NCBI GenBank assembly: GCA_030248295.1
Contig: JASANH010000782.1
Span: forward strand, 62,001 to 126,000
Source of the DNA: Mesodorylaimus sp. YZB2_4
Lineage: Eukaryota > Nematoda > Enoplea > Dorylaimida > Dorylaimidae
Length of the DNA stretch: 64,000 nt
Reading direction: 5' to 3'
Position numbers and translations under genes: made by a program. The notes below the pieces were generated by a model. That model was not told the origin of the DNA, did not search any database, and worked only from the letters and a program-made list of their open reading frames with translations. Of this stretch, positions 2 to 46,391 are shown one piece after another. Numbering within the stretch: the stretch's first letter is position 1; the number at the start of each line of letters is the position of its first letter.

Positions 2-1330
2 GCCATGTTTTCTAGTGGATCCCGAGTCGTACTGGAGCTGACTGATGACCCGGATCAAGTGCGGCAGCTGAAAGTGGTTCAGATGCGAGGGGGCACGCGC
101 ACAGATCTGGGTCTCGCCGATGCCAAAGACAAGGTGCTGGACAAAGCTCGTCCCAACGCCCTGAAGATCGCCATTCTGATCACTGATGGACATACTAACC
201 GTGCACACGAAGTCGACGCAATTGCGAATGCTGCGGCACTACGAAACGATGACGTCGTTGTGTATGCCGCCTACGTTGGCACCCTGCCCGATCACACCCG
301 CCAGCATCTCGACGAAATCACTGGAAATCCGTTTCGTGTGTTTTCAGTCAATGCCTTCGACGACCTCTTGGATGTCATCGTCAAAGATATCCTGAAACAG
401 GCCGACTGCCATTACTCCGCTATCTGTCGCTTCGACGAGCAACGCGGTTGTGGCCCCGTCTGGTGGCAGCCGGCACCATTAGACAAAGTGGCCAACTGCA
501 CCAACCAAAGGCCCGCTGATGACAAAGTGGAGAAAACATGCGCCGAGGTTGAGTGCAACGCGACGTGCGAGAAGTGGGAGTGGGAAGAAGTGAATTGCGA
601 ATCGAGCGGCCAAACTGGCACCAGGCAGCGTGTCGGGCAGAAGCCAAAGCACCAACAGCACGTGTTCGAGCACTGCGCCAAGGAGGAACCGTACGTATGC
701 CCAACTTGGACCACTCTGTCAAACATCGCGCCTGAAAAAGAGACCAAGGCTCCTGAACAAGTGACCAAGGCTCCTGAAGAAGTGACCGAGGCTCCTGGAA
801 AAGTGACTGATGGTGCGGTTGACGACAAGACCCTGGTGAAGGGTGATGAAGGAGGTTCAAATTCATGGTTGATCCCAGTCATCGTCTGCGTGATCGTCCT
901 GCTCCTGCTCATCGTCATTCTGGTTATCGTCCTGACCGTCCGCAGAAAGAAGAAAAGGGACGCTGCTGCTGCCGCCATGGCCAAGAAGAAGGCTGAGGCT
1001 AACGTCAAGTCGGAGGCATCGATGAACAAGTCTCGCATGCAATCCAAGGCGCTCGGCACCCAGACCTTCGATCGTAGCATAAGCGTGGCTGACAGAAGCG
1101 TGGGTGTTAGCATGGCCGAAATGACTAGTACACCAACGAGGAAAACGAAAAATACAGGGCCTCCGGTCAAGAAATCGGGCAGCCAGCATCCCACGCAAGC
1201 AATGGAAGGCAACGTTGAAAAAGAAAGCTCAAAATCAGCCATGCCGTCGAAAAAACCGTCAGTCAGTGGGCCGAAAGAGGCGGGATTCCCGTCGAAGAGC
1301 GGTCTGGTGAAGAAGCCAACGAAAGGATGA
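2..1330 (+). CDS. VWA / 10-cysteine single-pass membrane receptor, 5'-truncated by window edge
   Basis: The frame is open to the left edge, so the true start lies outside the window. Residues are numbered from the ATG at 5. Residues 1–130 are the second half of a von Willebrand A domain: a GGTRTD segment (MIDAS threonine region) and ILITDG with the MIDAS aspartate at 61. The DxSxS loop must lie upstream. Residues 135–232 hold ten cysteines with spacing 5-7-15-13-4-3-9-25-7. The WEWEEVNC and GTRQR stretches recall a thrombospondin type 1 repeat. A stalk of 7-residue repeats (TKAPEQV-like, about 243–268) follows, then a membrane span (about 288–311) and a basic tail with KKK runs and Ser clusters. 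VWA plus TSP1-like modules on one membrane span suggest an adhesion receptor; this is inference. The 10-cysteine pattern recurs in the gene at 14071–15789. Confidence 0.8.
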   Translation, partial: AMFSSGSRVVLELTDDPDQVRQLKVVQMRGGTRTDLGLADAKDKVLDKARPNALKIAILITDGHTNRAHEVDAIANAAALRNDDVVVYAAYVGTLPDHTRQHLDEITGNPFRVFSVNAFDDLLDVIVKDILKQADCHYSAICRFDEQRGCGPVWWQPAPLDKVANCTNQRPADDKVEKTCAEVECNATCEKWEWEEVNCESSGQTGTRQRVGQKPKHQQHVFEHCAKEEPYVCPTWTTLSNIAPEKETKAPEQVTKAPEEVTEAPGKVTDGAVDDKTLVKGDEGGSNSWLIPVIVCVIVLLLLIVILVIVLTVRRKKKRDAAAAAMAKKKAEANVKSEASMNKSRMQSKALGTQTFDRSISVADRSVGVSMAEMTSTPTRKTKNTGPPVKKSGSQHPTQAMEGNVEKESSKSAMPSKKPSVSGPKEAGFPSKSGLVKKPTKG

Positions 1331-1407
1331 CGTTGGTAGTCCGTGATCAGTGATGACACTGAAGAAGATGTTATGCATGTGCTCATATCGTGTTCATTCA
1401 ATGTCTT

Positions 1408-1413
1408 AATAAA
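1408..1413 (+). promoter_or_regulatory. Polyadenylation signal AATAAA of the VWA receptor gene
   Basis: A canonical AATAAA hexamer lies about 80 nt after the stop codon of the VWA receptor, a normal distance for a 3' UTR end. Confidence 0.55.
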
Positions 1414-2675
1414 ATGGGCCAAAATCTGTTCGCAATGTGAGACTTGACTCAATGTGACATTAATAGCTACTCTTTTATTCGCTATATGTGACTGATCAGT
1501 CATCGAGTGATCAGTGATGTCGTTTTATTCATTTTAGAAGATGTATTCTTGAAATTAACGAATTTCTGATGCGAATACTATTTCAGTCAATTGATAAATC
1601 AATCAGGCTAGTCAATCAGCGATCCAGCGATCGATCAATTGTCACGAGAGGGTGTGTCCAACGGTGCATAAAACATGCGGTATGTCTTGTATGTTTCCGG
1701 CAAGGCATAACTGTTTTTTAGGATACCATGTCAATCTTGGAAAAAGAAAATTTTTGTTTGTTGGGAAACGATTTTCAGTGATTCGGAATAGTGCAAATGC
1801 ATAGTATTGTAAAAAATCACTGGATAGCTGGTCAATTCTTTTGTACGTTTCTTCCGTCTCATCTCCTGAATGCTCGCTCGCGATCTCCTGAATGCTCAAG
1901 CCTTTCCTGGCCAGGTCAAGAGTGCCTTCCCTGGACGGCATTTCCGTCCGCTGGACCTTGGTTTGACGGCTGTCCCACACGTGGGATCGTCCGTATATGG
2001 ACTTGGGTCATAAAACGTTGCAAAACCGCCTGTGAGTGGTCGTGGTGACCCCTCAGTATGCATCTGGATCCCTTCTATTACCTCTAGAAGTAGGTGCCGT
2101 TATTCTGCGGCTAAAGGCAACGCACAGATTGTAATTTACTGGGCCTTTTACTGAATGACCATCCAGACCAGAGCTAACTAAAAAAGGGACGAATAGTTCT
2201 ACAAATTTTCACTCGATCAGGCTGGACTGAAATCCCGCTTATTCAAACCCTACACGCAAGCTGCAACGTAAACTTTCTTTTCAAGTCTTCTCTTTTCTGA
2301 TTCATTTTTGATTGCTCGTGCCTTTTCTTTGCTGTTAATGAATCCCTTCTTATCTCGTTTTTCACTGCATTTCTTCTATCTGATAGAAAATCTAGAATTA
2401 GGTAATCGAATTAGAATGTTTTTAGCCCGTTTCTATAATTATGAAACTGGTTCAAAATCAGGGAGGACATTTTTATGAACAAGAGACGTTCATTAGCGTT
2501 CGCTTCTCAAAACCTGTCAAGCAGGGTGTGAGGCGATAAGAGAGTGTGCTCGGCAGACAAATACAAACTTGTTTTGATCGCACTACGCACTACACAGACT
2601 CCCAGCGCATAGCTCTTGCGTTCAGTGTGTCGAGCCAATTTAAGTAGGTAGTAAAGCCGTTAACTTGTGGGGGCA
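1414..2675. other. Intergenic spacer before P450-1
   Basis: No gene is recognised here. At 1560–1640 there are many short GATCA/TCAATC repeats. A minus-strand open frame at 1642–1980 (112 codons) has no family I can name and is probably chance or a decayed repeat. The last part is the presumed promoter of the first P450; no clear TATA box is seen. Confidence 0.5.
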
Positions 2676-4993
2676 ATGATCACATTGTCACACGCGGTGC
2701 TCTTAGTCATTGTGCTTTTTATAATTGGCTCTATTTATTGGTATTTGACAATACCAAAAAATCTTCCACCTGGTCCCCTGGGCTTGCCATTCCTGGGCTC
2801 ATCGCTCCACTATTTGGATGGGACAAAGCAACACCTCATTTTACAGCAACATGTTAAGAAATATGGTCCACTTTTTAAAGTGTATATCGCCAATAAGTTG
2901 GTCATTGTTTTGGGCAATTACGAGCTAATTCAAGAAGCTCTTGTCAAGCAAGGCGATGTATTTGCGGCAAGACCACCGATTGAATCGTTTCTTCCTGAGA
3001 AACTTCGGCAAGCCGGTAAGAACATTTCAATGACATCCTGCATGCAGCAGGTCTTCAACCATAAGTACCTGAACCCGCATGGTATAGGTTACAGCTGGTG
3101 GGTGTAGGCACTGGAAAGGATGTTAGCCAGCAGTTGGCTTTTTGGTGGAAATTTGCCTGCTCCAGCCGAAAGCAGCAGGACAGGGCACAGAATTGAATTT
3201 TAAACAGGGAGACTCCAGCTATCGGGATCAGTGGTTGCTCTTCACAAATTTCAGCCTGCTAGTTCCAAAGTTGGATAGTTTTCTTAAAAATCCTATGGTT
3301 TCCATTGTGCACCAGCAGAGTGCCACTCGGTTATCTTAAAGACCCCAGTAGAGAAAACTACTTTACTAGTCGATAACAAGCAGAGCAAGTGAGTAGTAGG
3401 TGCGATGCGCTAGTTCTAAGGGTAACATGCTCGTAGAAGTAACCTTTGCAGTAGCCTAATCATGAGCGTTGCGAAAGCAAAGTGGCGCGAGACCATGCCC
3501 TGGCAAGTATGCAAACTACCAATGCGTTTACATCACACACTCATACTCGTACAGGAGGTCAGGGTAGTCACATACGCCGGGTGAGATGCTTGACTGGATG
3601 CTCACGATCAGCCCGATAGAGTCGTTCAACAAATCCTCTTCGCGCACTTCATGTGGTCAAACCTGTTCTACTACATAGGCATCTCGATGTCAGAAGGCGA
3701 TCGGTGGAGAGAGCAACGTCGTTTCGCTTTGTCGACACTTCGCGATTATGGCGTTGGTCGTCCGATCATAGAGCCACGGATAAAACAAGAAATAGAACAC
3801 CTGAATGAGCGGATTGTAGAATACGCCGCAAATAAGGTCCCATTCAATCCACAACGACTGGTCACCTGTGCAGTATCAAACATCATGAATCAGCTGCTAT
3901 TCGGACGGCGATTCAGTTACGACGACGAAGAGTTTGTACGCCAGGTCACAGGACTGTCGAGCAGGTCCTCTGGGACAGGGGTCAGCTTCTTGTCACCGTT
4001 TGTGCTCTCAGAGGCGCCGTCCGCACTTATTAAATATTTACCTATGGTAAGAGCTCCAGCTAATTCGGAAGTCCCGTTGGAAAGTTTTCAAAAGGGCGAT
4101 ACTCGGGGCGTGTAAATGTTATGATGCCGACAGGTGAGTGGAATCCATTTCAGGGAAAGAAAATACAAGCTGAAATCACTGATTACCTTCATTATATCAA
4201 AGGTGAATTAGAAAAAACAAGATCAACATTCGACCCAGATTCTGAACCAACAAATTATATCCATGCCTTTATGAAAGCAGCTACAACAGCGAGTCACAAT
4301 AGCTACTTTTCCGATGACCAATTGTTAGCCACCTGCAACGACTTATTCCAAGCCGGTACAGATACCTCATCCACCACCATCCGCTGGGCCATCTTCATCC
4401 TGGCTCACCACCAGGATATCCAAGAACAGATGTACCGAGAAATCAGAGACCAGGTTGGCACCAGTTGCATGCCCAGTTATGCAGACAGATCGAAATTGCC
4501 ACTGGCCGAAGCAGTCATCATGGAGACGCAACGTTACTCCAATCTTATACCATTGGGTGTCTTGCGCAGAACAATAGTCCCCACGAAATTGATGGGATAC
4601 GACATTCCGCAAGATTCTATTATCATACCACTGCTGACTAATATTTTACACAATCCAGACTTGTACCCAGATCCGTTTAACTTTAATCCGAGTAGATTTC
4701 TAGATGGTAGTGGCAAAGTGATAAGGGACCCGAAACTAATTCCTTTCCAAGCAGGTGGGGACTTTTTTAGTTTGGAAAGCCTGAAACAATTCTTGTTTCG
4801 CACTTCAGGCAAACGAATTTGTCTAGGCGAGCCGTTGGCACGGATGGAACTGTTTTTGATTTTGGTTGGACTCGTAAGCAAATTCCGCCTGTATTTCCCC
4901 ACTGATAGATTGAAGCCAAGCATGGAGCCAGTAATTGGGTTCTTCTGCTCACCACAGCCATTCGAAATCTGCGCTGAAGTCAGAAGCGATTGA
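2676..4993 (+). CDS. Cytochrome P450, CYP2-like (P450-1), four exons
   Basis: Join 2676..3015, 3679..4046, 4154..4754, 4809..4993 gives 497 residues, the usual size for a microsomal P450. An N-terminal anchor (about 5–22) is followed by the proline hinge LPPGP. WREQR gives the helix C WxxxR. The I-helix oxygen-activation motif AGTDTS lies at about 303–308, ExxR (ETQR) at 360–363, the FNPSRF meander at 413–418 and the heme loop FQAGKRICLG with Cys441 at the end. All splice sites are GT–AG; intron phases are 1, 0, 1. The ATG at 2676 was preferred over an in-frame GTG just upstream because it starts the anchor directly. The protein should be an ER heme-thiolate monooxygenase; the substrate cannot be told. 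Intron 3 is 54 nt and free of stops. Confidence 0.93.
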
Positions 4994-5634
4994 CAAAATG
5001 ATTTATAAATAGCGGGCTGACAACTTTGGATTAGCAATCGCGAGAAGTCCCTGGCGGAAAAACAATACTTGTATCTTTGAAATGCTTAGCCCTTGAATGA
5101 CTAGCCAACATTTGGATTACCCATCGGTTAATTAAAAGGTCGGTTGCATGTGCCCTTTTTAAATGCCCTTCTGAAGACACATAACACGGGTGTGAACTAT
5201 GTAAATGACATTAAGTTCGAGCAAATTTTTGTATCGGGATTTCACAACTGCTTGCAACTATTGCATCACTTGCGTGTTTCTGAGGGTTTCTGAGAGACTC
5301 GACCCATATATTGACATATATACACTTGACCACTCGACTTTTTTGACCCCTTTTTTATTTGCTCAATCGAAAGTACGCACAAAATTAATTGTCTTGGCCG
5401 GAGTGAAATTTTTTTAAAATGCCCAAATATAGAAACATAGCACATTATAGGTGGAAAATGGCCACTTCTGGTAAAAAAACATACTCATTTTTTGTCCTAG
5501 AACAATTTTAAAAATTCAGAAATGACAGCTACATTTCAAGGAGTCAGAGTCTTTTTTTGAATTAGTCTAGCTATGAACGTTAATGAGATATTCAACAAAA
5601 ACCGCCTGTGATCAGCCGTGATCGGTCACATAAT
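4994..5634. other. 3' flank of P450-1
   Basis: AT-rich spacer without a supportable gene. An ATTAAA hexamer at 5131–5136 could serve as the P450-1 poly(A) signal. From about 5635 the left arm of a long inverted repeat begins. Confidence 0.4.
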
Positions 5635-6535
5635 CGATTATGGGCGAATTATTAAACCAGTCCAACCCTGTTTTTAACACTGAAATTGTGGCCGAGGGCC
5701 ACTATATCACAGAACAGCTCGAAATCTCCCCCTAAGATCACAGATTATTGTGCACACGTGAGATAACTGAACCCCATTTAGGCCATTTTTGCCAAAACTA
5801 ATCAATAATTTTAGCTGTTGATCAGATGCGCTGATCAGTAATGGCCTATCCTGTGGCCATTGAGAAAAGCTTTCAAATGGGGTTTTCTACGTCGAAATTC
5901 ATTAAATTTTACATGAGATATTGAAGAAAACTCAAATTGGGAAGGAGGCCTGCAATACGCACCTTCTGAACTTACCGCCTGCGTGCCGCTTATGACATGA
6001 TAGCGGCTGTGGCTGCTCACTCTGGGAACCGCCACTTGATTCATGACTTTTTCACCTTTTCACTATACGTGCTGGTCTAATTCTGTGCTAGAGTATCTGT
6101 CTTTCATAAAAAGTAAGAGAAGTTATAAGTTTCCTTTAAAATTCCAAGAATAAGCAGCCCAGTCCGCTTATCTGTCACAAGCGGCGCGCCGGCGGGAAAT
6201 TCAAAAGGTGCGTACTGCAGGCCTCCTTCCCAATTTGAGTTTTCTTTAATATCTCGGGTAAAATTCAATGAATTTCGACGTAGAAAAACCATTTTAAAGC
6301 TTTTTTCAAGGGCCACAGGATAGGCCATTACTGATCAGCGCATCTGATCAAAAGCTAAAATTATTGATTAGTTTTGGCTAAAATGGCCTCAATGGGGTTG
6401 TTATCTCACGTGTGCACAGTAATTCATGATCTTAGGGCGAGATTTCGAGCTGTTCTGTGATGAAGTGGCCCTCGGCCACTATTTCAGTGTTAAAAACAGG
6501 GTTGGACTGTATTAATAATTTGCCCATAATAGAGC
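5635..6535. mobile_element. Foldback / MITE-like element with ~330-bp inverted arms
   Basis: The left arm (about 5635–5970) and right arm (about 6205–6535) are imperfect reverse complements around a ~235-bp centre. Matching landmarks include ATTATGGGC paired with GCCCATAAT at the outer edges, the ATCAGATGCGCTGATCAGTA block and the GGAGGCCTGCA block near the centre. Open frames on the minus strand in the two arms are not conserved as protein, so the element is non-coding. It looks like a non-autonomous DNA transposon of foldback type; the family is unknown. Confidence 0.75.
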
Positions 6536-6569
6536 CGCCTTTAGTAGACCAGGGCACTCATCTCCCGAC

Positions 6570-6705
6570 TCACAGCCGGATCAGATCGTATCCCATCCGT
6601 TCGGATCGGATATCCAATCCGATCTGATCCAAAAATTGCCATCCTGAAATTCGGATCAGATCATCCGATCTAATCCATCCGATCCGAAATCCAATGGTTT
6701 TTGCG
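6570..6705. repeat. Degenerate GGATC/GATCC-rich repeat
   Basis: About 135 bp are built from irregular repeats around CGGATC, CCGATC and GATCTGATCC. Shorter stretches of the same type occur at about 47680–47705 and 51050–51115, each next to a copy of the repeat family described for 7153–8443. It is probably the variable end of that family. Confidence 0.6.
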
Positions 6706-7152
6706 ATAACTGTAGGCAAACAACGAATTATCGCTCAATTTTTCTCCGCCCACTCTATAGTGTGATGAATAAAGTGGAATGAATGATTTGCATTGCTGCT
6801 TCCTTTTTTCCTGCTCATATTAGAGTCACGAGTCTCATTATTAATATTTGAGACCAGAAGAAGAATAGATGACTCACACACAAAAGAGCATCCCAACCCT
6901 CAAGTCGAACTTTACAAAACCAAGAATTGGAACCCGAGCGTTGAGATAAACGTGCAGGGCTCTTTCCGAACTAGTTTTTAGCTTTCGATTTTGAGCTTTA
7001 ATTGAGGTTTCAGTTTATTCTATCAAACAGATCCGAAAAATGCAGACGAATAATACAAATTCCAGGACATTAGGCACTAACCACTGCTGACCAGTTGGCC
7101 AGATGCCCCTTTTCTTTTTATACCGATCTTTCTTTACACCCAGAAAGAAATT

Positions 7153-8443
7153 GCAATGTTCAGTTTTGTCAAGCTCGACGCAACGGTTTGCAAAGCTGCC
7201 TCTCCATATTTTGGAAATATTTGGAGTTGGACGACAGAAATATTAGTGAGGAGTGGAAACGAAGTGGAAATATTCCTTTTTTATGAGAGAGATTAAGGTT
7301 GAGGCTGCAGTCATTTATGAGCAGCATGGATCTGTTCACATAATCAGCTTGTGGTGAAGATGCATGATGAGCAGTGGCACGCCTTGAAAGGGACGCTGCT
7401 TGTACTGTACATGGCACCATGATAATAACTACTGTATGTTTACTATTAAAAAGCGACCTTTCGAAAAAAATATATGCGTTATTGTTTGATGGAGAAAATT
7501 TCTAGTATGTACTTTTTTCACATCATCAAATCCTAAATTTTTACCATCCAATCTAAAACAGTGACTCATTCCGAAAGTTCTTGGTATGTGTTGCCAGTAC
7601 TAACGTAGTGCCATGTTGGCCAGCCAAAAAAAAGTGCATGTAACAGCAGGACACCAGGAAATATTGGCCAAGTGGGTCGCCGACCCAAGTGAAATGCCGC
7701 GCCATCTCTAGCGTCGCACTGTACAATACGTAGTCCAAATCCATTGTATGCGGTCTTTTGTTGGCAGCAATTTTCTATGTAGATTTTTGGACCCGCAAAG
7801 CAGATTTGGGCCATTACAGTATGACGTTGTAAATGACTCAGCCCATACCCATGTGGTACGGACAGACATGTGAATTGCAGACACTGGGGTTCAGTCTCTC
7901 GCGCAGAGATTGACTTGGGTCCCAATGGAAAACGAGCGCAGCAGATCAAAGAAACGATGGTTCAGAGGAAGGCTTGCAAAACACCAAGCCAGAGATCATC
8001 TTATCTGCCTCACATTAGTGAGCAGATCAATAAGACATGTGGAAAGATAAATTTGCATCACATAGCTAAAGGATAAAAACCTTGCCCTCAGTCACTTCCT
8101 GTTTTCCCGAGACAGTCTGTCCTTGTTCAGGGGAAAATCTAATTTTTTGTCCGAAGATGGTAAAATGTCCTTGCCCAAGGATATTGTCGAATCATGCTGA
8201 ATTTATTATATCTTAGGAACTTTGATCAATTATGTAACAAGACCGTTTTGATAATGTGAACTGCGTCGGGGCACAAAGCCTTTTAGGTAATGGGCTTAAA
8301 AATCTTGTTGTTGATTCGGGGTCAAGACCATATCCCTTTTTTCGATTTCTTGATCCTGAGTATTGAAGACTGCTGTTCACTTATAGCCGCAGAAGTTTTA
8401 ACTCTGAGCGACTGTTCGGTGGATTAAAGAAACAAGGGGGACG
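7153..8443 (+). repeat. Dispersed ~1.3-kb repeat, copy A
   Basis: This copy matches copy B (11158–12547) in inverted orientation over nearly its whole length. The match runs from the GACGCAACGGTTTGC block near the 5' end to AAACAAGGGGGACGCG at the 3' end. Shared parts include the segment ending in GCACCATGATAATAA. Partial copies lie at 47430–47705 and 50270–51115. No transposase frame is visible. A short open frame seen in both copies (7870–8076 here) carries many amino acid changes, so it is not under obvious protein constraint. Confidence 0.75.
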
Positions 8444-8539
8444 CGCTAATCGTCAGATGCATCGTGAGAAAAGTCGCAACAGAATGGGGAAGTGTTAAGA
8501 AGCGAACCCTGCCCCGAGGGGACTGAACGCTAGGAAAAT

Positions 8540-8572
8540 GGTGATGATGATGATGATGATGATGATGATGAG
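8540..8572. repeat. (GAT)n microsatellite
   Basis: About ten uninterrupted GAT triplets. They sit in otherwise featureless spacer between repeat copy A and the serpentine receptor. Confidence 0.9.
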
Positions 8573-9085
8573 GTATATTCACATTTAACTTCAATTTGAC
8601 GTCACGAAAAGCAGGCCAGGGCTGAAACGATGCATACGAAACAATTTTCTAGCGAGATTGTCATCAAGCGCTGGATTTACGTTAAATGAAGTCTGCTGTC
8701 CAAAAGATACTGCACTCCGCTACAATATATTTGCTGGGCCATCTATCTTCTAATCCCATTATAGGAAAAGATTCTGTTGATAAAGTCAAAGGAAGAGAAG
8801 ACATGCGGCTCGGACAGCCTAGGAAGGCGGGTGCAGGTGCGCTATTATGAACTTTTCGAGTGAAAAGAACATGTCTAGCTAATTGCTTTTCATCGAGGCC
8901 CTGACGTTAGTCGTTATCTTACTGTTTCACCACTTTGGAGACCATATTTATTTTAGCCTTCAAAGTCAAAAGCTAATTCTCGTCAACTCATTGACCTGGC
9001 ACCGTTCTGTACATGCTCTAAAAGTAGCTTACTTGTCAGACGGAGCCATCTTGTTAGTAATCTGACCCCCTGATCCCTGCAAAAC

Positions 9086-10075
9086 ATGAACAACTCGACT
9101 CACTCTTTGGACCAGATCTCTTTATCATCCCTGACTCAACAGGCACCCAATATTTTGTTCATGATCCTAGAATTCCCACTCGTATTTGCAACAAACTTCC
9201 TCCTCATGCTGACTATTCTTTGCACAAAATCTTTGCGTTCAAGTAAAAACCAACTTGTGATAGTCAGCCTCAGTTTTGTCGAAAGTATCCTATTTACTAT
9301 TTTCTTCGGAGTCAGTTTAAGACGATATTTGCTATTCATTAATGGCGTTCCTGAAACTACGACCCAAAAAATGTGCTTTTTGCTCGTCCAAGGTCCTCAA
9401 CACCTTTTTGGAAATTTACAAGAAATTATGGTTTTGAATTTGGCCATTGACAGACTTTTGTGCATAACCATACCATTTTATTACAAATATTGTAAAACAA
9501 CAAAGTACGTAATTGTATTAAATTTAATTTCCTGGTGTTTTTGTTTGACTCAATTCACTGTGGCTTACTGGACACTCGACCACGACCTCCTTGTTCCAGC
9601 CTGCACTCGTGCGACAAGTTTTCATCCGACTTATTTGAAATTTCACACAATTGAAGTGAATGTATTTATTGCTTTGATAGTGCTGATGTACGCGAGTCTA
9701 ATTGGCATCATGTATCGTCGTTATAGAAATGCGGAATTGAATACAGAAACGCAAAAAAGCGAATGGCGGCGACAAATGGAATTTGATATTTTAATTGCCA
9801 CGGTTGTTGTCGGATTGATTTGTATATTTTTTTATGGATCTACTGTGATTATGATATCAGCCATTTCAAATTTAAGATTAGCTGCGAAGCTTACAATTTT
9901 AACCAGCATTTCGAACTGTATTAATTCATCTTCTCATTTCTTTGTCTATTTAACAATCAATCGCAAATTTCGATCCGCGTTCCAAAAAGTTGTGTGTAGA
10001 CGAGATGAAAACCAAGTGATTCAGGTAGCAATTGGATTGAGTATTTACAGGAGTGGACATGCTGAGAGGGGTTGA
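9086..10075 (+). CDS. Intronless serpentine (7TM) receptor
   Basis: A single 329-residue frame starts at ATG with an N-glycosylation site (NNST) at the N-terminus. Seven hydrophobic spans can be drawn, starting around residues 23–45 and ending with a span in NSSSHFFVYLTINRKFR. The span 3/loop 2 junction reads NLAIDRLLCI, so DRL stands in place of the rhodopsin DRY. The last span has no clear NPxxY; FFVYL is in that place. This is a divergent rhodopsin-like receptor of the kind expanded as chemoreceptors in invertebrates; the ligand is unknown. The gene sits in the ~2.7-kb space between two inverted copies of a 1.3-kb repeat. A second, broken receptor is at 54083–55082. Confidence 0.85.
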   Translation: MNNSTHSLDQISLSSLTQQAPNILFMILEFPLVFATNFLLMLTILCTKSLRSSKNQLVIVSLSFVESILFTIFFGVSLRRYLLFINGVPETTTQKMCFLLVQGPQHLFGNLQEIMVLNLAIDRLLCITIPFYYKYCKTTKYVIVLNLISWCFCLTQFTVAYWTLDHDLLVPACTRATSFHPTYLKFHTIEVNVFIALIVLMYASLIGIMYRRYRNAELNTETQKSEWRRQMEFDILIATVVVGLICIFFYGSTVIMISAISNLRLAAKLTILTSISNCINSSSHFFVYLTINRKFRSAFQKVVCRRDENQVIQVAIGLSIYRSGHAERG

Positions 10076-11157
10076 GCTATGTTCTGATTTGAAAGATATC
10101 ATGTGTGCCTCAGTGGGTTTTCTTAACGTGCTCCTCCTGATCGAAGATGGTGAAATGGTATCTCAATGAGGTGATACTTACAGAACAGGACAAAAAACTG
10201 TGCGGGATAGGTTGGAATAACTCGAGATATTTTGCAATATCGTGTGCGCGGTGCGGGGGCGCGACTACTGTAGCGGGCACCAGTGCCTGTAACTGCAGAC
10301 GTAGGACACAAACGGCTCTTGCATGACGAATAAATATTTCTACGGTATGGTAGCTTGAAGATTTTTAATCTCTGACATGGTTATGCCATTTCCACCTCAT
10401 TTACCTTGAGCTGTTATTTTATATATTATAGTTTCATCATGTACAGTATGTTTGAATCCCTTTTTTTTGCAAATTTCAGAGTTCGTACTTTCTGGTATCC
10501 AACTGTTAGACAAAACAAGAACTCAAAATTTTACATGAGTTAATTTTTTAAGACAGCACATAGATCGAGTCCACAAAAATTACCTGAGCACCACGAACAC
10601 CAACAGCATGAATTCAGGACCCAATTACTCTCCAGTTGGAAGTCCTGCTTTCAACTATTTCAGAGATAGCCTTTCTCAAATGGTCAATGTATTTGGTAAA
10701 TTTTTCTGGTGTCACTGTTTCCCAAAACCTGTAAATTCCATGCAAAGCTCATGTTCATGTTTTACCACATCACCAAACGCTTATGCGCACTCGAGGGTGA
10801 AGGGACACATTTTACACGAAATGATTTACAGGCCCGCGAGTCGAACCCCCGCCCGTAATTGCGCACCTGGCGTGAGAAGCACACGCCTACCCCACCAGGA
10901 CACGAGGCCGGTCTTCCTTCACAAGCTCTCCCACTGTGCGCGGCTTCACGTACTTCTTCAACCACACTGGCTGACCGGAGGAAACGCAAAAGAGCCTCCG
11001 CCCGGCTTCGTTTATTGAACACTAGCTAAGTGATTCGACCTCCAGTTGCCCGGCGGCGATAACAACACGAGGGTATTGGCCACCACATCGAGAACAGACC
11101 GCTGCCTCGTGGCCGGCTTCCGGCTTAAAGAAAAAAATGAGCTTGAATAATTGTTGA
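10076..11157. other. Spacer with a tRNA-derived repeat
   Basis: No protein gene is recognised. The only structured part is a tRNA-like sequence at about 10840–10925 (minus) with its downstream tail, listed separately. Confidence 0.5.
10835..10925 (-). repeat. tRNA-derived repeat (SINE head), box A and box B recognisable
   Basis: Read on the minus strand, TGGTGGGGTAGGCG resembles a tRNA box A, and GGGTTCGACTC further on is a good box B. The anticodon arm does not fold into a standard loop with T33, so it is unlikely to be a working tRNA. The sequence after box B (CTGTAAATCATTTCGTGTAAA…) recurs, diverged, after GTTCGACTCGCGG at about 21180–21260. That points to a dispersed SINE family. Confidence 0.55.
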
Positions 11158-12547
11158 AGACGCGTCCCCCTTGTTTCTTTGATCCACCGAACAGTCGTTC
11201 AGAGCTACAACTTTTGCGACTATTCTCATGTGAACAGCAATCTTCAATTCTCACAATCAATGAATCGAAAAAATGGATATGGTCTTGACCCCGAATCAAC
11301 AACAAGATTTTTAAACGCATTACCTAAAAGGCTTTGTGCCCCGACGCAGTTCGCATTATCAAAACGGCCTTGTAACATAATTGATCAAAGTTCTTAAGAT
11401 ATAATAAATTCAGCATAATTCGACAATATCCTTGGGCAAGGACATTTTATCATCTTCGGACAAAAAATTAGATTTTCCCCTGAACAAGGACAGACTGTCT
11501 CGGAAAAACAGGAAGTGACTGAGGGCAAGGTTTTTATCCTTTAATTATGTGATGCAAATGCCGAGTGAATCTTTCCATATGTCTTATTGATCTGCTCACT
11601 GATGTGAGGCAGATGAGATGATCCCTGGCTTGGTGTTTTGCAAGCCTTCCTCTGAACCATCGTTTCTTTGATCTGCTGCGCTCGTTTCCCATGGGGACCC
11701 AAGTCAATCTCTGTGCGAGAGACTGAACCCCGGTGTCTGCACGTCACATGTCTGTCCGTACCACATGGGTATGGGCTGAGTCATTTACAACATCATACTG
11801 TAATGGCCCAAATCTGTTTTGCGGGTCTAAAAATCTACATAGAAAATGCCTGCCAACAAAAGACCGCATACAATGGATTTGGACTACGTATTGTACAGTG
11901 CGACGCTAGAGATGGCGCGGCATCTCACTTGGGTCGGCGACCTACCTGACCAATATTTCATGTTGTCCTGCTGTTACATGCACACTATTTTTAGCTGGCC
12001 AACATCGCACTACGTCAGTATAGGCACATGAGTTAGGCCGTGTCGTATGCAATAAAAGTCCAATCCAGCGGACAGTCCAAGGAATCGGACTTTTATCGGG
12101 CACCACATACCAAGAACTTTCGGAATAAGTCACTGTTTTTTTTTTGATTGGATGGTTACAATTTAGGATTTGATAATGTGAAAAAAGTACATACTTGAAA
12201 TGTTTTCCATCAATTAAAAACGCATATTTTTTTCGGAATGGTTGCTCCCCAATGATAAACATAGAGTAGTTATTATCATGGTGCCATGTACAGTACAAGC
12301 AGCCCCCCTCTCAAGGCTTTGCCACTGCTCATCATGCATCTACACCACAAGCTGATGGTGTAAACAGATCCATGCTGCTTATAAATGACTGCATCCTCAA
12401 CCTTAATCTCTCTTACAAGTAAAACGGATATTTCCACCCCGTTTCCACTCCTCACTAATATTTCTGTCGTCCAACTCCAAATATTTGCAAAATATGGAGA
12501 GACAACTTTGCAAACCGTTGCGTCCACTTGACAAACTCACTCATTGC
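11158..12547 (-). repeat. Dispersed ~1.3-kb repeat, copy B (inverted relative to copy A)
   Basis: Reverse complement of 7153–8443 over nearly its full length, with scattered substitutions. It carries an extra segment of roughly 85 bp at about 12015–12105 that copy A lacks, inserted where a GGCAC motif occurs on both sides. Copies A and B bracket the serpentine receptor. Confidence 0.75.
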
Positions 12548-13251
12548 CGCTCACTGCCCTGCCGGGTGTTTTGGCGATGTCTGTCTTTCCCCACTCGTCT
12601 TTTTCCTTGTCAGGTGCCCTGCAGTCTTGGTGCGCCTGGTCAGTTAGTTGTGGCTGTTCCCGTTCCGCGCAACTGTCAAGTAAATTTCTCTCTCTCGTTT
12701 GGTTGCAAAGCAATTGTGCAGATGATCATCATCATCAATCATTCTGTTCCCGTTTCGTTCTTCATAAAGAATCTCTGTCGGGCATGGAGCCTTTCTTCCG
12801 AGGGTTTTTGCCGCATCTTGAAAAGAGCAAAAAATGAGGACTGCTCTTCTCGAAACGTAGGGACTGCAGGATAGGGTGCACTGCATTGGGGGCTCCAAAA
12901 GCAGCATGAATGTCCTCTAACGATCAGTCACGGTGTGGCAGTGAATTCTGTCCTGAGCGCTCAGTCACAGAGCTCAGTGAGCTGTACAAACGAGCCTTTA
13001 AACAAGACACAATCAGAAGCTCACCGTCGCTGTCAACCGTTATTGCTGACATTGCAAACTTGGTGAATAAACTGACATTCAATTTGTTGCAGATTGGAGG
13101 AAAGAAAATAAGAGACTTTTTCTTGATAAACTAGTTTGTTTGTTTTTTCTTATCTGCTGCTTTAATCTCTGCAACATTAGCGAAAACAATTAGGCACTTA
13201 TCTTATGTTTAGATTGCCCGGCAGAAATCAGAAGGGCGCATTATGGGAGGA
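12548..13251. other. Spacer upstream of P450-2
   Basis: An open frame at 12910–13134 (74 codons, starting ATG) has no recognisable family. No other coding signal is seen. A TATA box for P450-2 lies at the end. Confidence 0.4.
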
Positions 13252-13259
13252 TATATAAG
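13252..13259 (+). promoter_or_regulatory. TATA box of P450-2
   Basis: TATATAAG lies 58 nt before the P450-2 start codon. This leaves room for a start site near 13280 and a short 5' UTR. Confidence 0.55.
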
Positions 13260-13309
13260 CATCAAAGCGCATGCATGCACTCAATTTGTGAACGTGGTTC
13301 TTCCGAAAT

Positions 13310-16300
13310 ATGGGCCTGCTGTGGTACCTTTTTTGGATTTTCTTTCTTTTAACTTCTGTTCTGATCTATTGGTATTGCTCAGTGCCAAAAAATCTGCCGC
13401 CCGGCCCAATTGGTTTACCGTTGATTGGCTCGTCGCTGGATTTTCTGAAGGCGTCAACACAACATTTAGTTTTGTTAAAACAAGTAAAAAAATATGGACC
13501 CTTGTTTAAATTCTATATCGCTAATAAATTAGTGGTGGTACTCGGAAATTATGACTTGATCCAAGAAGCGCTTGTCAAAAATGGTGATGCGTTTACTGGA
13601 AAACCACAGGTTTATGGAATCATGCTAGAAAAAATGAGAAACCGCGGTAAGCTTAGAGCTTTTCTCGTGCCTCGGCTGCATGTCGCAGAAAAATAATAAC
13701 ATAAAAAAAAATTAACCATGCATCCCAGATCGTTAATTAGGGGGATCAGTGCTTAGCACTTCAAAAAACACAAAGTGGTCCGAGGTTTTATTCTTTGAAG
13801 GTGCCTTAACTTTCTGAATCCAAAACTAAAACTTAATGCCCATGGCCATGTGCACAAGAGAAATTCGAGTTGTTTTGCTTATTTTTATCAAAGTCATAAT
13901 TTGAAAAACATTTTTTTGCGCAGGCGTTTTAATCGAATGAAAACCCACAGGCGCGTCACATTTACAGAAACCAGTACATCGCCATTTGATCACCACCTTC
14001 GTCGTGATCACTTCTTTTTCCCGCACAGCATCACTTTGCCAAGCTGTTGAACTTGTGCTCGACTTTGATGCTAGGCTGCCCACGGGGCATTCTTCGCATT
14101 CGTTATGGCTTGAGAGCGCACAGTCGACTGCGAGGCCCCCATGACCGAGCCTTGAGTGCCCGACAGCTCGCTGTCAGATTGGTTGCGAGCGTTTGACATT
14201 TCTGGCTTCACAGCGCTTTTGGTGCGAGCCATTGCTTTCTTAGCGCTGCTCGACTCGACTTGAGAAGGCGACTTCTCAATGAGCGAAGCTTGCACACTTT
14301 TGTCCATGGCTGGCTTCGATTCATCTTGCATTCGCACACTGATGGAGCCTTCGCGACTCGACGTTCCAGATCCACCACTCGATTGAACCACGCGAGCGAC
14401 TGGACTGATCGACTTGGCGGGGATTTTCTTGGATTCCGAGGTGAAACCTGTGGTCCTTGGTTTCCCTTTCTTATGGTGGCCTTTTTTCTTCCTTCGCTTT
14501 CCGATGATCGCGGCAATCACGACGATCACGATCAACAAGACCAACACTCCAAACACGATGAGGGCGATGGTCCAGTCGCTCATTCCCCCCTCATCCATAT
14601 GCCGATCGCGGTGAGTAACGCCGCCCACTGCTCCGTCGCGACTTTCCGTGCTGGGCGCCATGGGCGTCGTTGAGGGCGAATCAGATTTGGCCTCCGTCGG
14701 GGTACTTTTCTTGCTCGATGAAGCCGTGCTGTCCAGGGTCGACCCTTTGTCTTCGCTGCTCGTGGTCGAAGCTTTGGTTTTCTCCGATGATATGAGCGAT
14801 TTCGCAGTGGCTTCACCCGTCTCTGGGATCCATGTCTCGCCTGCGCTGGAGCTTTTGCTGGCGGTGTCTCCGTTCGTGCTGCCACTGGATCCTGGAGCTG
14901 TGCTGGAGCTTGTGCTGGCTTCACTCGTGCTTCCGATGGACTCTGAGGTCATGCTGGAGACCTTGGTGGCGGTGCCCTCACTCGTGCTGCCACTGGACTC
15001 TGAGGTCATGCTGGAGACCTTGGTGGCGGTGCCCTCACTCGTGCTGCCACTGGACTCTGAGGGCGTGTTGGAGACTTTGGTGGCGGTGTCTTCACTCGCG
15101 CTTCCGATTGACTCCGAAGCTACGAAAGATGCTGAAGTTGACGTTGTGGGCGTTTCAGGAGTTTCAAGAGTCTCCTTCGAAGACGCTGTTTTTGGCAGAG
15201 TCTCAACGGTGGAGGCCGTCGTTTCCCCAGTGCTTGGTTCCTTTGAGGCAGTGGCCTCCCCCGACGAAGACGTTTCGGGTGTTGTCGATGACGTCGAGGT
15301 GGTGGTGCTTTCACTCGAGGACGAGGACGAAGTAGCACTCGCTGCTGTTTCTTTCGCCTTGGTTGAACTTTTTGTCCCTTTGGAGCTGCTGTTGGTACTT
15401 CTTCGCGACGGTGGAACCAGTGAGCAGAGCACAAGTTTTGTATTGCTGCACCATTGGTAGAATTTGTGATTGAGTTCAGAGTGCGAAGGCATGGGGCCAT
15501 CGCGGAAGATCGAAGATTGCCGTTGGGTTCCGTTCATTCCGCACCACGGGATTTCAGACCACGGCCAGAAGTCGTCGCACACTTTTTCGCACTGTGCTCT
15601 GTCGCAGTGCATCAGAGGCTGCAGAGTTGACTTCGTTTGGTTGCATTCGACACCGAACGCAGCGGAACCTTCGTCGAAGTAGAAATCGGGCACGCACAAG
15701 AGCTGATTTGGATCACGAAAGCGGCATTTGATCGAGAATTCGCAGGCGGAAGAGAAGGCGATGATGGCGAAGAGCAGAGCAGCGTGCATCCAGTTGAGAC
15801 CATCGACTTGGAACAGCATTTTACTCAGTTTGACGATTCAGAAGCACAGATTTCAATTCACATAAGCAAGCAGCGCAAAACACGACTTTACTCGTTGAGC
15901 GCACAGAGGCAGAATGACGACGGGAGTGCGCTAACTGCTAGATGAGCCAGCAAGCACGCGTGAGAGAACTTTACACTGCATTTTTATCACACAGAGTCGA
16001 AAAAACTAGAAATTTGTTTCGTTCCAGGCATCGGTCAAGCGGAAGGGACATTATGGAAAGAGCACCGTCGATTCGCTTTATCAACGCTGCGTGATTTCGG
16101 TCTTAATCGCCCAATATTAGAGCCTCGAATCAAGCTAGAAGTGGAATGCCTCATTGGGCGCTTCGCTCACTACGCCGCCACCGCCTTGCCATTCGATCCT
16201 CAAGATCTTGTCACATGCGCTGTGTCAAACATTATCAGCCAGTTGTTGTTTGGACGAAGGTTTAGCTACGATGATCAGGAATTTGTAGATCATTTCACAG

Positions 16301-36101: not shown

Positions 36102-39100
36102 ATGGGAGCTAACCATAGTCAACTATTGCCTAAACATATACATTCCATAAAAGAGGAGACTCAATTTACAGAAGAAGAAATTCGCGAATTTCATCAATCA
36201 TTTGTGAAGAAATATCCGAATGGACAATTGACTAAATCTGATTTGACGAAGTAAGTACTAAACTCAGATTAGGATTTTCGAGACGCAGGGCATATTTTTC
36301 AGAAAATTTCTCATGTCTCATAAATCGAAGCCGAGTCATAAACTAGAAGGCTCTGCGGTTACTGCAGATCAAAATTTTACGAAAGGTTTAAATCACTTAA
36401 CCGCCTGCAGTGCAGGGTCACCCTCTCAGGAATTGCGTGTGTGTGTGGGGGGGGGGGGGGGGGGGTACTGCGTACAGTGCGTACAGGGTACATGTAATTT
36501 TACAATATTTTGAGTGATAATTTATTGCTCCAAAGTGGCTAGTTTTTGCAAAGAGCCGTTTAAGACTGAATACATCTATTGTTTTTGTCAGCGAAACATG
36601 AAATAAACTGGTTCACGCACCCTAAAATGGACATGTATCGACTGGGTCGCCAAGTCTCTTTAGAAAAATAACCGCGCGAGTAGCAGACTGCACAAACCTG
36701 CCTGAGCATCACCAGGGGACTGTTTCACCACGGGTTCTACCATGGTAAAACCCGTACCATGGTAGCACCTATCTGTGTTTCACCAAAAACCATACCCCTA
36801 CCATTATCCATTGGTAGTCTACCCACGGATTCACCCTAGATAATCTACCTGTGCGTTTCACCAAAACCCTACAGTATGCCGCACAACCCAGAAAAATGGA
36901 TAAAATCGCAGAGAATTACCCATAAATTTTAACCCTGCTTCGGAGGTGGGTGAAGAGATTATCCATCGTCAAAGTTTGCTGGAAATTGGCAGGAAAAACA
37001 TAATTTTATCTGAAAGTGTCGACCATTTGTGGAAATGAATATCGGCCTGTATCATCGACAAAATTTCTTCGAGTCGGATGAAGAAAATGACGGCGAACGA
37101 CCACCCAGGAGACCTCGAATTTTCCGTCCTCGGAATTATTGCAATCTCGATAATATCGACACGAGAAAACGGTTTCGACTGACATTGAATCACGTGGAAT
37201 TATTGCAGGATCGAATCGGTGGAGTTATCGCGCATAACACCGAGAAGAACTGCGCTTTGGATCCTCGGCAACAAATTTTGCTGTCTTTATGGTATGTCGC
37301 AGTCTATGACACTGACTTTCTGATTTCATCTTTTTAATTTTTGTACGCACACAAGCATTTTACACTGCAGTGCCCACTTTACACTTCCTCTTCGAAAATG
37401 CAAAGATACGCATATGCAAAAATGCAAAGATGCTTATGCAACGATAATGCGCATTATCGTTTTTGAGAATGGAACGGAAGATTCATGTTGCTCATGCTTT
37501 TTTCCAGGTATTTGGCCTCGGGCGATGGATATCAATCGGTCAGCGATGCACAAGGTGTCAGTAAAGCGACGATGTCAAGGACCATCCATCGATTCGTCGA
37601 TGCCGTGAACCGGCATATTTTTCCAACAGTTGTCGACTCGCCAGGTGAACAACGAAAATTGAATGGAATGGCCAATAAGTTCTTGGACGATCGAGGCTTT
37701 CCTTGCGTATTTGGATGCATAGACGGCAGCTACTGCAACATCATAGCTCCAAAGGATGACGAAGCCCAATTTATCGATCGACATCAAAATCACTCGTTGA
37801 ATTCGCTATTCGTATGTGGACCAACAATGCGGTGAGTGGGATTTTGTCTTTGCTTTTTTCGATCATGACTCGCTTTAGCAGTCAGCTAATCGAGTGCTGT
37901 ACATGACTTACAAATTTTGGCTTTCAGGTTTTACTACGTGTCGAGCCGATGGCCCGGGTCGGTCCACGATGCCCGTGTCTTCCGCAATAGCACCCTGAAA
38001 AGACGATTAGACGCGGGTTGGAGGCCGATTCCTCAGGGCGTTTTATTGGGCGACTCCGCTTACTCCGACTGCGATTACCTGGTCACTCCGGTCGCCGATC
38101 CCAGGAATCGATCTGAACGCCATTATAACAAGGCCCATCGTCGAACCCGCAATCTCGTAGAATGCGCGATCGGCATACTAAAGCAACGGTCTCGATGCTT
38201 GTTCAAAAAGATGCATTTGGTGCCGACTTTCGCGGCCGAGGTTATCCGTTGCTGCTCGGCCTTGCACAACTTGCTAATGGATGACGATGAAGCCGCAGAA
38301 GAATTAGTCGAGTTCGATCGCAATCGCGATGGCGAGGACGACCATGACTACGACGTTGTCCAAGGTGATATGACCAGGAAAAGACAACTCATTGCTTTGT
38401 TTTAGACGGTTGAAATTCGAATTTGAATTGTGATCCAGGATTGCGACTGTTGAATGCGGGGCGTGCTCGCCAGATTTGTCTGTATTAAACATGCGAGTGT
38501 TTCTGGATACTCTTGATTTTTCTAGATACACTGCGATGATAGGGAAAGTCAAAGAACATTTGTGAGCACTTTTGTGAATATCCACCCTTTTCCATCCTCA
38601 GAACCAACAACATAGACGCAACATAGAACCTACAAGGAACAGGGAAATGGATGACGCCGAGAACGGCCAGTCGAACATATTCGTCACCCTTTTCAGAATG
38701 AACAAAAACCTACCACAGTATATGACACGGCCCTCAATATCGTGCATAATAATCATAAATCTGTTTCCACTACGTGCTGAACAAGTACGCAGCCCGTTTT
38801 CAATCCTTTTTCATCGATTCAATTTCCAGTTCTAATCGCTTCATTTTCAGCTTCAAATAAGCTATCTGGATTTCAGCCAACTCATTTTGGAGTTTCATGT
38901 GACGTTTCCTTTCTTCCTCGAAATCGGTGTCGGCCATTCGCGAGGCTATTCCCGATGTAGATGAAGAACGTGAACCAGATCCACTCGTGGACAGGCAACC
39001 TCGAGCACTGCTGCTAGAGAATCTTCGAGACTCGGTATTTCCTGCTGCGAAGGTATTTCCAATCCTTATCGGTGGGAACTGCCTCGAAAGCGTACTGGCG

Positions 39101-44080: not shown

Positions 44081-44678
44081 ACGCCCCTCGCATATATAGA
44101 GTCATGTACATGCAAAAGCGATGGCACTAAAGTTTAGCATGTACATCTTTTAAAAAATTTCGAGGTGCTATAAATTGCTCTTTTTTGTATTGGTGATTTT
44201 ATAAAACTGAGTATTTTTTAGTGGTTGTTTTCGTACGTTTTCCATACAACTCCAAGTTATCAAACTAGTCGCAATTTAAGCACGGCACCAATCAAATATT
44301 TGCAAGTCACCCACTCATCATCCATGTTTTTTGTCCATAATGCTGATAAACCGGCGTTCTTTTAGGCTCACTGTAACCTGACAAATTACTAGGCACAATA
44401 CACAAAGTCGCTGTTTTCGTGCTCGTTCATTAAAATTATTCCTTTTTTTCCATGGATCATAGCAGCATGAAATTTGTTTTACTCTGCACTAAGTAGCTCA
44501 TGAAACAGTTAGACCTTTACCAACCAGAAATATAACGCCAGTATACTGGCTATTACTTTTTCAAACAATAAGGTTAGTGGCGCATATTACATAAAACCTG
44601 ACATTGCAGGTACCAGTCTCAATTTATCTTCCCATTTTTACATTAGTCGTTCCAACTGACAGTCTCTTGTGCCTACAA
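44081..44678. other. Spacer upstream of the first DEG/ENaC gene
   Basis: AT-rich sequence without recognised genes or repeats; presumed promoter of the channel gene. Confidence 0.4.
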
Positions 44679-46391
44679 ATGGAAAATACCATTTCTAAAC
44701 GACTTTTTAAAACCTTCGAAATCATTTTTTTCGTTTCCTTCGCTTTTATCGCTGCTTGGGATGCAAAAAATATAATTGTTGATTACATAACAGAAAATCG
44801 ATTAAGTTTGGTCAAGCAACGTAACATAACAGATCTATTTCCATTTTTGGGCAAAGTGGACATTTGCTTGCAATATGATCATAATTTGTTACCATATGTT
44901 ATCTACAGTGAAGATTTCGATAGTATTACTAGGCAATACTGGCTGTCTGGAAAAATCGATTGGCCGTTTAACTTATCTCAATCTGAAAAAATGTTAACTG
45001 AAAGTATTTTTGATCTTTTCATTTCGCATTTTTTTCTAAGAAACTTAGACAAACTTAGTGAATATATTACATACGATGATTTCCCAACCTATGAGATGTT
45101 TGATAACATAAATGATCCAATCAGTATTTGGCAAATTAATCGATCAGAATTCAATTGGATTGTTGATAATTTCATTAAAAATCCAGATAGCTTGAATCGA
45201 ACTCGTAGAGCGTGGTCAATTTTACAGCCCCAGCTCATTCATCATTCCCGTGGATCTCTTAATCAAAGTCCCCATCTTATCACTTTGTATTCGATTACTT
45301 TCGACAGTATTTGCTTTCGAATTCCACTCAGTCAACATTTGACAATAAATTCAGTCGACAATAATGAATATTACAAAATGGATTTCTTCGATCCCAAGTA
45401 CAATGCGTTCCCTGGACTTACATCAGCAGTGGTCGCCATCACAATCTTTGAAGAAACGCTATCAGCTCCAGCTCCCCCGTTCAATAGGACGGGTGAAATT
45501 GTGGTCGTCATTCGCAATGAAGGCGTATTCGACACTTCTCTTTTCCCACCTTGTACCCCAGACTATGACACTGAACGAGAGTGTCTAAGAGACCTCAGAC
45601 AACGTGTAATATCCGATGTGTGTCAATGCACACAACTTAGTGAATATATCTCAAAATCGATGTTGATCGATGCCAACGATCAATCGATAAAAATCGATAC
45701 CCGAGATCACCGATTTTGTACCACAAAAATTTATGATAAATGTAGAAAACAAGCGATTAAGGAGAGTGAACGTCAATATTTATTAGCCATAGAAAAAGAT
45801 GTGTGCTCGCCTTGTCGTTACCATAAAAATACATACGATAAAAGTTTAAAATTAACAACAAATAAACCTACCGAAGGAATTGTCTTCCCTCGCCTTCTTA
45901 TTGCTTTCAAATGCACGGAAAGACGTTATGTAATTTTCGAAGATCGTCAGCAATTTAATTTTTCCCAATTTATTTCTCAAATCGGCGGCGATCTGGGATT
46001 ATATATCGGATTTAGTATGGTTAGTGTTTTAAAAGTTTTTTCACTTTTATTTAATTCAATTCAAAAATATCGCAAAAAGAAGATTCAGAAAAGAACAGAA
46101 GAATCGGGTCCGCCAATGACAGCGGGCCACCAAACTCATCGTCAGCACAAATGGTTTCAGTACTTGTGCCACCGCTGCGCTGCGGGGGAAGGAAATCCAG
46201 AAGATCCAGAAATAGGCTATGGTCAAGAAACGATTTCTAGAAACAAGCAATGTCAAGATCAGAGAATCTATCAGAAAATGCAAATTCTTCAAGCGAATTT
46301 TCAAACATTGCAGGAGGAAATCAATTTGATGCGACAGGGTATTAATATACGTGGTGCAAAAACCAATGGGTTGGAGGTGAGCAGAATTTGA
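44679..46391 (+). CDS. DEG/ENaC-family sodium channel subunit 1, intronless
   Basis: 570 residues from ATG 44679. The frame stays open 75 nt upstream, but this Met begins a short cytoplasmic tail directly before membrane span 1 (about 13–35). A large ectodomain contains DICLQY early and a cysteine-rich part (CTPDYDTERECLRDLRQ, DVCQCTQL, CSPCRYH). Span 2 follows FNFSQFISQIGGDLGLYIGFS, where GFS (444–446) is the GxS selectivity filter. The cytoplasmic C-terminus (~124 residues) ends in a heptad-like helix (YQKMQILQANFQTLQEEINLM). Members form trimeric amiloride-sensitive channels gated by peptides, protons or force; the stimulus is unknown here. The last codons contain a good donor (GGAG|GTGAGC), so a further 3' exon is possible. 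Confidence 0.9.
   Translation: MENTISKRLFKTFEIIFFVSFAFIAAWDAKNIIVDYITENRLSLVKQRNITDLFPFLGKVDICLQYDHNLLPYVIYSEDFDSITRQYWLSGKIDWPFNLSQSEKMLTESIFDLFISHFFLRNLDKLSEYITYDDFPTYEMFDNINDPISIWQINRSEFNWIVDNFIKNPDSLNRTRRAWSILQPQLIHHSRGSLNQSPHLITLYSITFDSICFRIPLSQHLTINSVDNNEYYKMDFFDPKYNAFPGLTSAVVAITIFEETLSAPAPPFNRTGEIVVVIRNEGVFDTSLFPPCTPDYDTERECLRDLRQRVISDVCQCTQLSEYISKSMLIDANDQSIKIDTRDHRFCTTKIYDKCRKQAIKESERQYLLAIEKDVCSPCRYHKNTYDKSLKLTTNKPTEGIVFPRLLIAFKCTERRYVIFEDRQQFNFSQFISQIGGDLGLYIGFSMVSVLKVFSLLFNSIQKYRKKKIQKRTEESGPPMTAGHQTHRQHKWFQYLCHRCAAGEGNPEDPEIGYGQETISRNKQCQDQRIYQKMQILQANFQTLQEEINLMRQGINIRGAKTNGLEVSRI

Follow-up and report, generated by a model that had tools for sequence, protein, structure and literature searches.

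Two receptor-like nematode genes belong to a large uncatalogued family that has a putative promoter element in common with MSP-domain genes

The two genes and their 10-cysteine module

The window analysed here, a 64,000-nucleotide stretch of Mesodorylaimus sp. YZB2_4 (C140:62001-126000 of a genome of 145,146,385 bases, ~145 Mb, in 1067 contigs), carries two genes on opposite strands, gene 1 and gene 2, whose predicted proteins share a module of ten cysteines. Here, we show that both are members of one large uncatalogued family of putative nematode surface proteins and that this family has a putative promoter element in common with MSP-domain genes, and we argue that the two genes probably encode receptors of the male germ line. 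That the genome is a nematode one is seen from its 133 matches to PF01484 (Col_cuticle_N, the N-terminal domain of nematode cuticle collagens) and 102 matches to PF00635 (Motile_Sperm, the MSP domain).

Both genes had been proposed in a sequence-only reading of the window and both are real, although their bounds had to be moved: the likely ATG of gene 1 is at C140:61777, 224 bases before window base 1, and the open reading frame (ORF) of gene 2 starts at 15819 rather than at 15789, which is an inner Met absent from the relative L060. The full gene 1 protein of 517 aa begins with a signal peptide and has a VWA domain that scores 84.8 bits with PF00092, against a cut-off of 23.8. Its metal-ion-dependent adhesion site (MIDAS) looks complete by reading, with the Thr in GGTRTD, ITDG and, in the part upstream of the window where it had been suggested to look for an Asp-x-Ser-x-Ser (DxSxS) loop, DESGS. 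The translation of gene 2 leads from a signal peptide directly into the module; it has no PF00092 match, and a family VWA profile run against the six frames of the window matches gene 1 only. The proposal of one gene with and one without a VWA domain therefore holds.

The cysteine spacings given for the two modules, 5-7-15-13-4-3-9-25-7 in gene 1 and 5-9-16-12-4-3-11-30-7 in gene 2, are exact. Direct comparison by BLASTP gives E = 1e-4 over the module, which is weak alone; a family profile, with both genes included in its building, scores gene 1 at 6e-24 and gene 2 at 3e-19. The claim of a shared module and a common architecture is supported. Intermediate members bridge the two genes, whose match lists overlap. 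In an alignment of 38 rows (gene 1 module numbering), C7, C15, C31, C45, C50, W59, C64, R75 and C90 are invariant, and C1, C54, W57 and C98 are kept in at least 90% of the rows. CRF after the second cysteine occurs in both genes, as had been noticed, and is frequent in the family. The GTxQR said to be common to both genes is not a shared feature, since GTRQR of gene 1 and GTQRQ of gene 2 are out of register in the family alignment, where R-x-G-x-x-P is what this part has conserved.

The expectation that the module belongs to no catalogued family was borne out. A Pfam scan of the 38 members gave no family above cut-off, the commonest weak match being SLR1-BP, seen in 8 of the 38 rows with an E of 0.002 at best; shared cysteine richness is presumably the cause. 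Nothing was above cut-off in NCBIfam, a prokaryote-oriented library, and a PDB profile search with the module returned 0 matches at E ≤ 10. A placement of the module inside a known domain family was looked for, and none of these profile searches gave one. A part of the module had been called thrombospondin-like; we reject this relation, as TSP_1 (PF00090) was unreported in all 38 members at E ≤ 10, in a search in which most matches with E above 0.1 are removed by the HMMER filters. The structures predicted for the two modules from two-row alignments are of too low a confidence (mean pLDDT 46.0 and 37.8) for their folds to be compared, and Foldseek with the first of these low-confidence models gave 0 matches at E ≤ 0.001, the best being VWF A1 at 0.016.

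Family size, domain order and loss of the VWA domain

Far from being a two-member family, as first thought, the module is found at no fewer than 172 places on 77 contigs. This figure was obtained by merging the genome matches of four different queries (63, 24, 115 and 96), of which 48, 24, 96 and 82 were entered, the last two being the matches at E ≤ 0.001. It is a lower bound, because the searches score the best candidates only, and it is a count of places rather than genes, in which fragments, broken copies and contigs that may be allelic also figure and each module of a tandem counts by itself.

In the usual arrangement, a signal peptide and the VWA domain are followed by the 10-cysteine module and a low-complexity stalk; after a single membrane span come a polybasic juxtamembrane stretch and a Ser/Lys-rich tail. 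A membrane span follows in the same frame in 46 of 55 module-bearing ORFs. Judged from their sequences, the members are single-pass type I proteins with a disordered tail, predicted to be exposed at the cell surface. L071 (C242:122700-126500) has two tandem VWA-module units in one open frame.

The family VWA profile matches 54 of 61 sources, and the seven that it does not match are precisely the VWA-less loci. PF00092 itself scores some members under its cut-off (L052, 19.8 bits) or does not report them (L046 and L050). The sampled VWA-less members, gene 2 included, form one clade with support 100/99 (8 rows), which under midpoint rooting is nested among VWA-bearing members. This nesting suggests that the VWA domain was lost once, in the subfamily of gene 2.

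The tail also has a recurrent motif. The SISV pointed out in the two tails is present in both, but the motif that recurs across the family is another one that comes after it, S-[VMI]-x-[VATS]-[SN]-[LM]. Of 42 tails, 18 have this motif, where shuffled tails would give 0.4, and it is present in both window genes.

An upstream element in common with MSP-domain genes

Counting of k-mers in 400 bp of 45 family upstream regions gave two words, ACTTTACACTG and GCGGTTGTG. For comparison between gene classes, upstream sets were chosen by hand and are non-random: 46 family loci, 20 of the 102 MSP-domain matches, 18 of the 133 collagen matches and 14 of 150 matches of a G-protein-coupled receptor (GPCR) family. 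The family set was drawn from 61 loci (60 paralog loci and gene 2); left out were five that lack a usable long frame, eight whose signal-peptide start is not clear, L049 and L055. Paralogs within the sets are non-independent.

At up to two mismatches, ACTTTACACTG occurs in 38 of 46 family upstreams against 5.4 in shuffles, a comparison that is circular in that the motif was derived from the family set. Independent of the discovery set are the MSP-domain upstreams, 16 of 20 of which have it (1.7 in shuffles); when similar upstreams are merged, it is present in 13 of 16 clusters. The exact core CTTTACAC is found in 22/46 family and 12/20 MSP-domain upstreams. When k-mers were counted de novo in the 16 MSP representatives alone, CTTTACAC was the top 8-mer (9/16 against 0.13 expected), while the same count in collagen upstreams gave the TATA-like word CTTTTATA. 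On this sequence evidence, the family and the MSP-domain genes have a putative promoter element in common.

ACTTTACACTG followed 30-75 bp on by TCAKTY is seen in 18 of 46 family and 9 of 20 MSP upstreams and in none of the 18 collagen or 14 GPCR upstreams; at most 0.3 are expected in each set. A second element, TGTGCGGTTGTG, is present at two mismatches in 16/46 family (1.8 expected) and 6/20 MSP upstreams (0.6), and in 1/18 collagen and 1/14 GPCR upstreams. GGTTGT lies exactly at +28 from the A of TCAKTY in six family members, against 0.6 expected. We call TCAKTY initiator-like and GGTTGT DPE-like, after the consensus sequences of the initiator (Inr) and the downstream promoter element (DPE). 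Gene 2 has an exact ACTTTACACTG 63 bp ahead of its initiator-like A (15915). Upstream of the window, the promoter of gene 1 combines TCATTC and a GGTTGT at +28 with an exact TGTGCGGTTGTG.

Across the genome there are 1454 exact copies of the element against 132 of the reversed pattern. On contigs C1-C5, for which all exact copies were listed, 8 of 13 MSP-domain matches, several of them close paralogs, have such a copy in the 500 bp upstream, as against 0 of 16 collagen matches. Three pairs of exact copies on C1 are 38 bp apart. In the window, two 1-mismatch copies (37357, 37376) lie just upstream of transposase pieces (37485-38405, the second ORF being a DDE_Tnp_4 match at 2.1e-21), so that some genomic copies of the element may sit in repeats.

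Table 1. Positions of the features of gene 1 and gene 2 in the window
Feature	Position	Strand	Basis and remarks
Gene 1, 3' part	2..1330	+	Single open frame entering from upstream; 442/517 aa and stop
Gene 1 VWA, in-window part	8..373	+	PF00092 profile positions 45-170
Gene 1 10-cysteine module	407..700	+	Family profile, alignment, cysteine spacing
Gene 1 membrane span	881..940	+	Most hydrophobic 20 residues (hydropathy); then RRKKKR
Gene 1 tail motif SVGVSM (within DRSVGVSM)	1097..1114	+	Motif pattern
Gene 2	14071..15819	-	Single frame, VWA-less, 582 aa
Gene 2 tail motif SVQASL (within DKSVQASL)	14281..14298	-	Motif pattern
Gene 2 membrane span	14503..14562	-	Hydropathy; then KRRKKKGHHKKGK-type basic stretch
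Gene 2 stalk, Ser/Thr-rich, near-repeats	14563..15423	-	Translation
Gene 2 10-cysteine module	15424..15744	-	Family profile, alignment, cysteine spacing
Gene 2 initiator-like TCATTC	15912..15917	-	Predicted transcription start A = 15915
ACTTTACACTG, exact, upstream of gene 2	15968..15978	+	Opposite in orientation to gene 2; 159 bp ahead of its ATG

Gene 2 is nested, on the opposite strand, in an intron of a cytochrome P450 gene (13310-17605; first exon from 13310, next from ~16030). The window has a second, sibling P450 gene (2667-4993, with PF00067 matches in its later exons), in which the corresponding interval is only ~0.6 kb. A copy of gene 2 on C33 (L059) shares with it 90%-identical DNA (15424-15919) that begins abruptly at 15919, the predicted transcription start, and there is no P450 exon in the 5 kb locus around this copy. 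It may be a retrocopy or a product of gene conversion, which are indistinguishable on these data because the copy shows poor conservation in its 3' part and has, farther upstream, a site that resembles the element with 3 mismatches.

Elsewhere in the window are a single-frame srsx-type GPCR (9086-10075; PF10320, 1.9e-20) of a family with at least 150 genome matches, two single-frame DEG/ENaC-type channel ORFs (44604-46391 and 48185-49990; PF00858), a trypsin-type protease exon (52038-52493; PF00089, 1e-18) and a secreted protein that looks by eye like a C-type lectin (62089-62739), with no Pfam match at E ≤ 0.01. In the whole genome, the 22-mer of the spliced leader SL1 was not found at up to two mismatches, nor was there a match to RF00198, which control genomes also failed to give, so that this absence is unproven; the lineage is suggested to have another SL1 or none.

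A male-germline reading, its alternatives and known systems

According to the available parts of PMC3343087 and PMC9635660, the MSP genes of C. elegans are sperm genes under a spermatogenesis programme, and the accessible text of PMC8480184 describes nematode sperm regions as rich in young, recently duplicated gene families. An element common to the family and to MSP-domain genes would thus point to the male germ line. Taken as a whole, we consider it moderately probable that the family consists of VWA/10-cysteine receptors that are expressed in the male germ line, located on the sperm membrane and active in adhesion or recognition. In such a scheme, ACTTTACACTG, often 30-75 bp before the initiator-like TCAKTY, would drive the family genes as it marks MSP-domain genes; the male germ line would produce the proteins, which would end up on the membranes of sperm; the VWA domain, metal-dependent where the MIDAS is kept, and the module could bind a partner on the egg, on rival sperm or in the female tract; and the basic, Ser-rich tail could hold the protein in place or be a switch for the many kinases of sperm.

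Several observations weigh against this reading. PF00635 genes include somatic VAP-type proteins, so the sperm role of the present MSP-domain set is presumed, and 4 of its 20 upstreams lack ACTTTACACTG at two mismatches. At that level the element is also met in 3 of 18 collagen (2.0 in shuffles) and 3 of 14 GPCR upstreams (1.0). Gene 1's own version of ACTTTACACTG has 3 mismatches, a level often reached by shuffles, and the second element is absent upstream of gene 2. On C1-C5, the exact element lies within 1500 bp upstream of just 4 of 16 family modules. The PF00149 phosphatases, a family that includes sperm-type members, were considered as a second sperm class; on the same contigs, 1 of their 13 matches has the exact element within 700 bp, and they were set aside as uninformative. 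DxSxS is found by pattern in just 17 of 55 rows, once probably by chance, and since many members lack it, metal-dependent binding would not be general. The single-exon form of the genes was dropped as a sign of sperm genes, because the srsx GPCR genes are, by eye, largely single-frame too.

A fuller version of the sperm reading, in which the family forms an adhesion or recognition coat of crawling sperm, its tails couple contacts to the MSP-driven pseudopod in a TRAP-like but independently evolved manner, and sperm competition or gamete recognition diversified it to at least 172 places, is in our opinion unlikely.

Small, too, is the probability that the proteins are somatic immune or environmental receptors, that is, expanded and fast-diverging VWA proteins of gut or skin comparable to the pathogen-induced C-type-lectin/VWA proteins of nematodes. 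The large dispersed expansion, the strong divergence and the degenerate VWA domains would be in keeping with such a role, and some large C. elegans secreted proteins with VWA, C-type-lectin and EGF domains are pathogen-responsive, as the available portion of PMC3534327 reports. However, those proteins are secreted and have another domain order, and the element suggests co-expression with MSP-domain genes rather than with gut or skin genes; collagen promoters are of another, TATA-like type.

We regard it as quite improbable that the products are male-specific but not sperm proteins, being instead surface proteins of the seminal fluid or male somatic gonad, or spermatocyte proteins that stay behind in the residual body. 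The element would fit any male-germline programme and does not separate sperm, spermatocyte and somatic gonad; against a secreted seminal protein, a membrane span and a long tail are ill-suited to that role. Least probable of all is that we are dealing with a core-promoter motif of a general kind, housekeeping or TATA-less, so that the element tells nothing about tissue: its 1454 exact copies do exceed the MSP and receptor genes combined, some perhaps lying in repeats, but the exact core is found in 0/18 collagen and 0/14 GPCR upstreams, these two classes and no housekeeping set being the controls, and in the 400 bp upstream of eight other genes or ORFs of the window no site has fewer than 3 mismatches.

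If the male-germline reading is correct, a nematode would devote to its male germ line a single receptor-like family with well over a hundred copies of the module. For the surface receptors of sperm that are amoeboid and MSP-driven there would then be named candidates, built on a module that is not in Pfam, and the 1454 exact copies of ACTTTACACTG could serve to list the remaining regulon and to find its binding factor.

Lineage-expanded sperm families are already described: MSP, NSPD, NSPF, DUF780, DUF236 and DUF1248 are such families in the accessible parts of PMC8480184 and PMC6081950. The present family is large too and has its upstream element in common with MSP-domain genes. A search of the open-licence PMC literature found no paper linking VWA receptors or CTTTACAC to nematode sperm. 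The family differs from those described in that its products are receptor-like membrane proteins of other domain content; VWA is not named in the parts of those sources at hand. SPE-56, a C. elegans sperm protein, has one membrane span and a disordered C-terminal region, as the family has; the comparison is by description only, and the available text of PMC13070043 mentions neither a VWA domain nor a 10-cysteine module.

Among single-pass VWA proteins, the anthrax toxin receptors resemble the family in their signal peptide, VWA domain with MIDAS, stalk or second domain, one span and cytoplasmic tail, and anthrax toxin receptor 1 is a weak PDB match (E = 0.045). These receptors have an extracellular Ig-like domain (Anth_Ig) and an intracellular domain (Anth_IC), neither of which was reported at E ≤ 0.01 in nine members scanned. 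In place of the Ig-like domain the family has the 10-cysteine module, and its tail is basic and Ser-rich.

The adhesins of apicomplexans brought up in the sequence-only reading, the TRAP proteins, are built of VWA, a cysteine-rich part, a stalk, one membrane span and a tail, which is the same order as in the family. They differ in having TSP1 where no TSP_1 match is found here and in their tail, and the present organism is a nematode rather than an apicomplexan. What stands of that likeness is the layout and nothing beyond it, and we would regard the resemblance as an analogy at most.

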